Assembly: GCF_002286975.1 (NCBI RefSeq)
Contig: NZ_NSKB01000002.1
Span: forward strand, 1 to 64,000
Origin: Halomonas salipaludis
GTDB lineage: Bacteria > Pseudomonadota > Gammaproteobacteria > Pseudomonadales > Halomonadaceae
Length of the DNA stretch: 64,000 bases
Reading direction: 5' to 3'
This document shows, one piece after another, positions 36,170 to 38,293 of this stretch. The notes below the pieces were generated by a model. That model was not told where the DNA came from and did no database searches. It saw nothing but the letters and a program-made list of their open reading frames with translations. Every line of letters begins with the position of its first letter. Within the stretch, counting starts at the first letter, position 1. Position numbers and translations under genes: made by a program.

Positions 36170-36748
36170 TCAGGAGGCGGGGCTCAGCACCATGTTGGCC
36201 AGCTCATCCGCCAGTTGGGCAGTGTTCATCGGCCCCTCGGGGTCGTACCAGCGCGCCGTCCAGTTGAGCGCGCCCAGGGCGAAGCGGGTGACGGTCGCCG
36301 GGTCGCCGTGTACCAGCCCCAGCTCGCGGGCTTCGACGATGACCTGATGCCATAGCGCTTCGTAGGCGTCACGCAGATGGGTCAGATGCTCGCGGTCCTC
36401 GTCGTTGAGGCGCCGCCACTCATAGAGCGCCACGCCGTGGGCATGGCGATCGTCGTGCAGGGTCTCGAGGTGAACCCGGGCCAGCGCCACCAGCCGCGCG
36501 CGGGGCGTCGGCACGGCCTCGGCCATGGCCCGGCGGGCGCTGACCAGGGCGTTGCGGGTACTCTCCTCGATCACCGCACAGAGAATCTCCTGCTTGTCGG
36601 CGAAGTGGTGGAACAGGCTGCCCGACTTGATGCCCATCTCCTCGGCCAGCATGCGCACCGTGGTGCGGTCGAAGCCTTGCTGCATGAACAGCCGCGCGGC
36701 GATTTGGGTCAGCTGCTGGCGGCGGGGCGAGTCGGTCGCTACATTCAT
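36170..36748 (-). CDS. TetR-family transcriptional regulator
   Basis: 192 residues. The N-terminal helix-turn-helix is RQQLTQIAARLFMQQGFDRTTVRMLAEEMGIKSGSLFHHFADKQEILCAVIEES (about 9-62). The C-terminal part (about 65-190) is a helical ligand domain ending ALGALNWTARWYDPEGPMNTAQLADELANMVL, as in TetR regulators of acyl-CoA metabolism such as KstR2-type proteins. It lies 148 bp upstream of the acyl-CoA dehydrogenase gene on the same strand, with the palindrome between them. A 271-bp MITE-like element lies only 10 bp before its ATG, so its natural promoter may have been displaced. The ribosome site is poor. Confidence 0.88.
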   Translation of the reverse strand: MNVATDSPRRQQLTQIAARLFMQQGFDRTTVRMLAEEMGIKSGSLFHHFADKQEILCAVIEESTRNALVSARRAMAEAVPTPRARLVALARVHLETLHDDRHAHGVALYEWRRLNDEDREHLTHLRDAYEALWHQVIVEARELGLVHGDPATVTRFALGALNWTARWYDPEGPMNTAQLADELANMVLSPAS

Positions 36749-36758
36749 CGCATTTACA

Positions 36759-37029
36759 CTAGGGTCTGTTGACGTTTCATCGCGAACCGCGTTGCTGCCT
36801 CAAAGAGTGCCAGACAAGGCGCAAAACGCTGGGAAGGGTGGTTCCCTTTTCAAGTTTTGCAACGCCGTATGGCACTCTTTGAGGCGCAACCCGAAGGGCT
36901 GGGCCCGTTTTTACCCGCGGCGGCGTTAGTCGTCGTTCATTTGGAATAACCAAACATCTCTCCTCCTGCCTTGCCGCGAATAAAAACGGGCTCCAGCGCG
37001 ACCGTGAGCGAAACGTCAACAGACCCTAG
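36759..37029. mobile_element. MITE-like element 2, 271 bp with perfect 20-bp inverted ends
   Basis: CTAGGGTCTGTTGACGTTTC (36759-36778) is repeated exactly in inverted form at 37010-37029. If CTAG is a target duplication, the ends are 16 bp. No transposase ORF fits. Inside, GCCTCAAAGAGTGCCA (36797-36812) and its exact reverse complement (36870-36885) form a second 16-bp stem; GCAAAAC/GTTTTGC and GGGAA/TTCCC pair inside it. It occupies the divergent promoter gap between the TetR gene and the thiolase gene. IS5-like mobilisation is inferred. Confidence 0.88.
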
Positions 37030-37105
37030 CGCTTGCTTGGTTATGCTGGAGCAAAGCATAGCCCCGCACGACGGGTCAATTGTCACCGCCATCGAGGAGA
37101 TCCCC

Positions 37106-38293
37106 ATGGCAGCATCCAACGATATCGTGATTCTTTCCGCCGCCCGCACCCCGATGGGCGGCATGCTGGGCAGCCTGTCGAGCCTCACTGCTCCCGCACT
37201 CGCCGCAGTGGCGATCCGCGCCGCTATAGAGCGTGCCGGCATCGAACCCGACGAGATCGACGAGGGCTTTCTCGGCTGCGTGCTGCCCGGCGGGGTCAAG
37301 CAGGGCCCGGCGCGCCAGGCGATGCGCCAGGCCGGGATTCCCGACCAGATCGGTGCCACCACCATCAACAAGCTGTGTGGCTCGGGCATGAAGGCGGTGA
37401 TGCTGGCCCACGACCTGATCCGCGCCGGTAGCGGCGAGCTGATCCTGGCCGGCGGCATGGAGTCGATGTCCAACGCCCCGCATATACTGACCAAGGCGCG
37501 CAGCGGCTATCGCCTGGGCCACGGCGAGCTCAAGGACCATATGTTCCACGACGGCCTCGAGGACGCCGAGACCGGCCAGCTAATGGGCGCCTTCGCCCAG
37601 CAGGTCGCCGACCAGCGCGGCTACGGCCGCGAGCGCATGGACGACTTCGCCATCGCCTCGCTGGAGCGCGCCATGGCCGCTCATCAGGCCGGCCACCTGG
37701 CCGCCGAAATGGCCCCGGTGACGGTTACCTCGCGCAGCGGCGAGACGCTGGTGGAGCACGACGAGCAGCCATTCCAGGCCAAGCTCGACAAGATCCGCAG
37801 CATGCGCCCGGCGTTTGCCAAGGACGGCACCATCACCGCCGCCAACGCCAGCTCGATCTCCGACGGCGCCTCGGCGGTGATTGTCGCCAGCCGCGCCGCG
37901 GCCCAGGCCCACGGCCTGACACCGATTGCCCGAGTGCTCGGCCACAGCACCTTCTCGCGCCACCCCAGCGAGTTCACCATTGCCCCGGTGGGCGCCATCG
38001 CCGCGCTGCTCGAGCGCCTCGACTGGACGGTGGAGGACGTCGACCTGTTCGAGGTCAACGAGGCCTTCGCCGTGGTCACCCTGATGGCCATGGACGACCT
38101 CGAGATCCCCCATGCCAAGGTCAACATCTTCGGCGGCGCCTGCGCCCAGGGCCACCCGGTGGGCTCTACCGGCTCGCGGATCATCGCCACCCTGATCAAC
38201 GCCCTGCGCGTCACCGGCGGCAAGCGCGGTGTTGCCAGCCTGTGCATCGGCGGCGGCGAGGCGACCGCCATCGCCGTGGAGCTGAGCGACTAA
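37106..38293 (+). CDS. Acetyl-CoA C-acetyltransferase (thiolase)
   Basis: 395 residues. The acylated cysteine is C91 in INKLCGSGMKAV. Downstream conserved features are EVNEAFAVVTLMAMDDL, GGACAQGHPVGSTGSR with the catalytic His, and LCIGGGEATAIAVEL with the second Cys. It condenses two acetyl-CoA or cleaves acetoacetyl-CoA; PhaA/AtoB-type biosynthetic thiolase and degradative roles cannot be separated by sequence alone. ATG 37106 follows GAGGAG by 6 nt. Its upstream region is largely replaced by MITE-like element 2, whose right end is 76 bp from the start. Confidence 0.93.
   Translation: MAASNDIVILSAARTPMGGMLGSLSSLTAPALAAVAIRAAIERAGIEPDEIDEGFLGCVLPGGVKQGPARQAMRQAGIPDQIGATTINKLCGSGMKAVMLAHDLIRAGSGELILAGGMESMSNAPHILTKARSGYRLGHGELKDHMFHDGLEDAETGQLMGAFAQQVADQRGYGRERMDDFAIASLERAMAAHQAGHLAAEMAPVTVTSRSGETLVEHDEQPFQAKLDKIRSMRPAFAKDGTITAANASSISDGASAVIVASRAAAQAHGLTPIARVLGHSTFSRHPSEFTIAPVGAIAALLERLDWTVEDVDLFEVNEAFAVVTLMAMDDLEIPHAKVNIFGGACAQGHPVGSTGSRIIATLINALRVTGGKRGVASLCIGGGEATAIAVELSD

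Follow-up and report, generated by a model that had tools for sequence, protein, structure and literature searches.

An IS5-type MITE with a conserved interior fold splits a predicted thiolase promoter in Halomonas salipaludis

Most bacterial MITEs are viewed as leftovers of insertion sequences (ISs) and are defined by their ends alone. Among the described elements, MITEPsy1 of Pseudomonas syringae is an IS5-family MITE of 100 bp with a reported 4-nt duplication (PMC3189936), and the QMITE1 and QMITE2 elements of Coxiella and the neisserial Correia/NEMIS elements are capable of being transcribed and of influencing adjacent genes (PMC5896051, PMC10969869). Here we describe a MITE in a 64,000-nucleotide stretch of the Halomonas salipaludis genome (contig NZ_NSKB01000002.1, positions 1 to 64,000; hereafter the window). 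It lies between an intact TetR-family regulator gene on the minus strand (36170-36748; domains TetR_N and TetR_C_24) and an intact acetyl-CoA C-acyltransferase (thiolase) gene on the plus strand (37106-38293).

An earlier note on this DNA had described a MITE-like element with perfect 20-bp inverted ends and an independent, perfect 16-bp inner stem with nested pairs, starting 10 bp before the tetR ATG and ending 76 bp before the thiolase ATG. The 20-bp repeats were found at 36759-36778 and 37010-37029, the stems are present where they had been placed, and both distances are correct. Comparison of 57 full-length copies, collected mostly from Halomonadaceae and located at different sites, showed that the constant part is TA-GGG...CCC-TA, with few exceptions. 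The base 5' of the left TA was C, T, A, or G and the base 3' of the right TA was G, A, or C, and the two varied independently; a target duplication of CTAG was therefore rejected in favor of TA, and the terminal inverted repeat (TIR) is 17 bp (GGGTCTGTTGACGTTTC). The outer C and G are target bases, and the flank resembles additional repeat bases because the target CTAG is palindromic. From the copies and from empty sites, the mobile unit was thus delimited as a 265-bp element at 36762-37026 (plus strand), with the left TIR at 36762-36778, a perfect right copy at 37010-37026 on the minus strand, and the TA duplication at 36760-36761 (within CTAG) and 37027-37028. The window copy is crossed by short open reading frames only and encodes no transposase. 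No further end motif was found in the 64-kb window with up to two mismatches or in the whole genome by exact match, and the element is present there as a single copy.

In three members of the same genus (G001, G002, and G003), the region between tetR and the thiolase gene reads TTTACACTAGCGCTTGCTTGG with one CTAG, which represents the empty site. The string CTAGCGCTTGCTTGG was kept in nearly all relatives with a readable site, spanning more than 10 genera, indicating that the insertion hit a conserved regulatory site; the insertion point falls within a 15-bp motif conserved across genera. A consensus scan of the congener sequence returned one promoter in the empty site, TTTACA-16-TATGCT, reading toward the thiolase gene, and the same scan returned none in the occupied site of the window. 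A single base separates the -35 hexamer from the TA target downstream of it; the predicted -35 (TTTACA, 36753-36758, plus strand) therefore now stands left of the element, 283 bp from the predicted -10 (TATGCT, 37042-37047, plus strand). The conserved thiolase promoter, as predicted from sequence, is thus split by the MITE.

The conserved site also contains a presumed TetR site, TTTACACTAGCGCTTGCTTGGT, whose right part, CTAGCGCTTGCTTGGT, is located at 37026-37041 (plus strand). In relatives, related sites of this neighbourhood read CCAAGCGCTTGCTTGG, which forms part of the repeat ACCAAGC-N4-GCTTGGT; the conserved site is therefore likely to be the operator of the adjacent TetR regulator. Through the target duplication, this presumed operator is largely rebuilt beside the predicted -10. 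A second, more palindromic copy of the presumed operator, reading CCAAGCGCTTGCTTGG, was observed in relatives on the minus strand close to the same cluster (L063, 807-822; L064, 807-822; L065, 780-795). The earlier note had held that promoter sequence of both genes must have been separated or replaced, and that control of lipid metabolism genes may have been altered. For the thiolase gene, the promoter predicted in the empty site is gone from the window; for tetR, all sequence beyond 10 bp upstream of the ATG has been displaced. Across genera, the conserved CTAG lies only about 10 bp from the tetR ATG (36746-36762 in the window), and no ribosome site is visible; tetR may therefore lack a leader or begin at a more internal codon.

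Comparison of the tetR-thiolase gap in related strains, as the earlier note had proposed, revealed empty sites in the three congeners and in at least ten other genera. The note had regarded conservation of the sequence at this locus in distant relatives, with no other genomic copies, as evidence against a MITE. Part of that pattern was found, as the genome holds no other copy and one congener, G004 (L061), is occupied at the same site; yet at least 13 genomes are empty here and copies lie at dozens of other sites. The G004 copy shares the TA and the orientation of the window copy but has lost most of its right arm. This shared position would be expected if the insertion were ancestral to the genus rather than recent and most members had since excised it precisely. 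We consider this history highly improbable, since element identity between G004 and the window reaches 98.7% over 150 bp against 85-90% in the flanks, and G002 and G003, which are closer relatives (97-99% in the flanks), are empty, as is G001. An old shared insertion therefore fits poorly, and both an independent insertion at a favored site and transfer on a tract extending less than about 40 bp on each side fit the data. The genome contains very roughly 4000 CTAG sites, as extrapolated from the CTAG density of the window, so chance alone is unlikely to account for the same-site insertion in G004.

The element or parts of it were present in 50 of the 275 Halomonadaceae genomes, with up to several per genome. 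Plasmid copies with 74-93% identity were found in Halomonas, Pseudomonas, and Azotobacter; a search for phage copies found none. At five loci (L096, L097, L127, L128, and L132), copies coincide exactly with the TAG stop of an adjacent gene in the script gene calls, because the CTAG target overlaps stop codons. Right-arm-only elements (L135 and L112) and a 70-bp end-to-end remnant (G001:C11:155116-155185) were also observed, which suggests that whole arms are lost as units.

Relatives carry TA-flanked insertion sequences of the IS5 family, 856-857 bp long, whose ends are those of the MITE. These encode a 249-aa transposase assigned to NF033580 (transpos_IS5_3; 286.7 and 273.6 bits against a cut-off of 110), with the Pfam domains DUF4096 and DDE_Tnp_1. 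Resemblance to the IS is limited to the first ~39 bp of the element (90% identity to one IS copy), and the arms showed no match to it. The autonomous element occurs in multi-copy bursts in G225, G213, and G263, with at least six to nine copies each among the matches listed. Together with the empty sites, the many copies elsewhere, and the copies on Pseudomonas and Azotobacter plasmids, this full-length partner with identical ends and TA flanks bears out the identification of the window element as a MITE, which also fits the failure to find a known cognate transposase in its own genome. The full-length IS that the earlier note had suggested looking for is thus present in relatives, but none was found in the genome of the window: IS and MITE were not found together there, and neither an NF033580 transposase nor one resembling the query proteins was detected. 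The window copy is therefore probably stranded now.

The interior of the element is organized as two arms around a small hairpin. The left arm (P2; 36791-36890, plus strand) has an outer stem with a perfect 16-bp run, a conserved internal loop CAAGGC/GCAACGC, and an apical hairpin AAGGGTGGTTCCCTT; its inner strands lie at 36797-36815 and 36867-36885 and hold the perfect stem GCCTCAAAGAGTGCCA. The mini-hairpin CCCGAAGGG (36890-36898, plus strand), which reads C(GNA)G in most copies, is nearly invariant. The right arm (P3; 36899-36997, plus strand) has a 21-pair stem with 16 covarying pairs, inner strands at 36903-36921 and 36973-36991, and an apical hairpin TTTGGAATAACCAAA at 36940-36954. Compared with dinucleotide shuffles, the fold gave z scores of -12.3 and -13.2 for RNA of the two strands and -11.4 for DNA. 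We assessed covariation in 22 copies that were less than 95% identical to one another (mean identity 77%). The common fold has 94 pairs, distributed over the terminal stem, the two arms, and the mini-hairpin. Pairing was kept in 95.4% of cells, compared with 36-42% when the partners were slid, and compensatory changes on both sides were observed in 45 of the 94 pairs, compared with 27 in shuffles.

Of 390 genomes searched in the order, 38 contained matches to the element, and 35 of these 38 lie outside the family of the window; 20 regions of this wider group were examined. Their elements are approximately 260-300 bp long and nearly all TA-flanked, with the same two arms and other ends; the alternative terminal repeats are GGGCCTGTTCAC, GGGGGCGTTCTC, GGGCGCGTTAAC, GGGGGCGTTACC, and GAGCCTGTTTGAGG. 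Most carry the mini-hairpin AACCCGAAGGG at position 126-129, and many have the right-arm motif GTTTGGT..TTCCAAATGA twice, once per arm and inverted relative to each other. Other copies have a single arm. At loci L188-L207, different terminal repeats are combined with common arms and the CCCGAAGGG mini-hairpin. That a conserved interior fold is common to elements with other ends is a point that the earlier note did not see. We tentatively propose, with slightly less than even confidence, that these elements form a superfamily in several families of the order, in which a single folded core, with two related arms in opposite orientation flanking a nearly invariant mini-hairpin, is combined with several IS5-type ends and acts as a functional DNA or RNA module aiding movement or tolerance rather than as a decayed IS.

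Compensatory changes in inverted repeats can also come from template switching without selection on function. The arms would then be DNA in decay, either derived from an IS or palindromic, in which quasipalindrome correction during replication maintains the pairing, and the fold of an otherwise ordinary MITE would be functionless. The right arm is compatible with simultaneous correction of both arms, as its 101 alternative Watson-Crick cells are accompanied by only 3 G.U and 3 A.C cells, and the persistence of one-armed copies with clean arm loss also favors this explanation. However, unpaired bases of the interior are conserved about as well as paired bases (entropy 0.61 vs 0.57), the length stays at ~265 bp even though identity between copies falls to as little as 63%, and in elements with other TIRs the internal loops and the junction hairpin are found at unchanged positions. 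We regard a functionless fold as unlikely.

The elements also appear to show an orientation bias. With gene calls based on codon usage made by a simple script, and with same-site pairs collapsed, the left end faced a gene start at 33 of 43 independent sites (33:10, p 0.0006), and one orientation was favored 18:4 between co-directional gene pairs (p 0.004). The window copy obeys this rule, with its left end toward tetR. Such a bias would be expected of a mobile gene or leader for a structured RNA: it would be transcribed with its neighbours, and its folded transcript would act on their mRNA through processing, stability, or termination; selection on the RNA would then explain both the loops and the orientation. 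Conservation of the loops GAGGAG and TTCCAAATGA and of the junction hairpin, whose minus-strand sequence is C(UNCG)G in most copies, is consistent with this possibility, as are minus-strand folds that are more stable by 6 kcal/mol on average, although this difference may stem only from the UUCG bonus. The strands conflict, however: the minus strand is favored by orientation and fold energy, the plus strand by left-arm G.U pairs, and the right arm is nearly devoid of wobble, so that the fold is not assignable to one RNA strand. When helices were chosen symmetrically, G.U and A.C over all helices stood at 36 to 19. A strand call from consensus energies was set aside, as the consensus fold of each strand favors its own wobble pairs. 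In Rfam, no family reached the gathering score for the element or the core. A leader peptide was considered for the window copy, in which the SD-like AGGAGGAG on the minus strand is followed by an ATG and a 6-codon frame, but this ATG is not conserved across copies, which speaks against both the peptide and a mobile RNA. A consensus scan found no outward promoter inside the element. Overall, we consider an RNA gene or leader distinctly unlikely.

We prefer the explanation that the element is a MITE mobilized in trans, which has split the promoter and whose interior fold is conserved for mobility or tolerance, and as a whole we judge this explanation to be probable. An IS5-family (NF033580) transposase would move the MITE in trans and insert it at the TA inside CTAG of the tetR-thiolase control region. 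This would leave the -35 of the predicted sigma-70 thiolase promoter on the tetR side, and the -10 with most of the presumed TetR site on the thiolase side; expression of the thiolase gene and tetR would then likely be lower or differently regulated. We read the interior not as a random remnant but as a fold that compensatory change maintains and that elements with other ends have in common; mobility or tolerance of the insertion most likely depends on it. Because the right arm is strand-neutral, the fold may act as DNA, in the form of a hairpin or cruciform; a role as RNA is less likely. The left arm does not fit a purely double-strand explanation, as G.U exceeds A.C there on the plus strand (39 vs 6 among covarying pairs), although these pairs were picked by folding that strand.

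Because the ends differ between lineages while the interior fold is constant, the role of a MITE interior, in folded-DNA transposition or in RNA control of neighbours, becomes directly testable. The locus itself is a clean natural experiment, with one conserved promoter present with and without the element among congeners. In the open-access text (ISfinder being outside the scope), we found no description of this element in Halomonas, Pseudomonas, or relatives, or of a fold common to MITEs with different ends. We read the element as an IS5-type MITE, and as such of a known kind, in an apparently undescribed variant with a fold under selection. It shares its 17-bp ends and TA target with the NF033580 (transpos_IS5_3) IS, whereas the interior of that IS consists of the transposase gene and contains none of the MITE arms. 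Like MITEPsy1, it is non-autonomous and lacks an ORF, with IS5-family-like TIRs, a CTAG/YTAA-type target, and presumed mobilization in trans; unlike MITEPsy1, it is 265 bp long with another TIR and a TA duplication, and no conserved two-arm interior has been reported for MITEPsy1 (PMC3189936). With Coxiella QMITE1 and QMITE2 and the neisserial Correia/NEMIS elements it has in common that it is a highly structured intergenic MITE; those elements have been described in single genera and have other ends and targets, whereas the core fold described here spans many genera and is combined with different TIRs (PMC5896051, PMC10969869).
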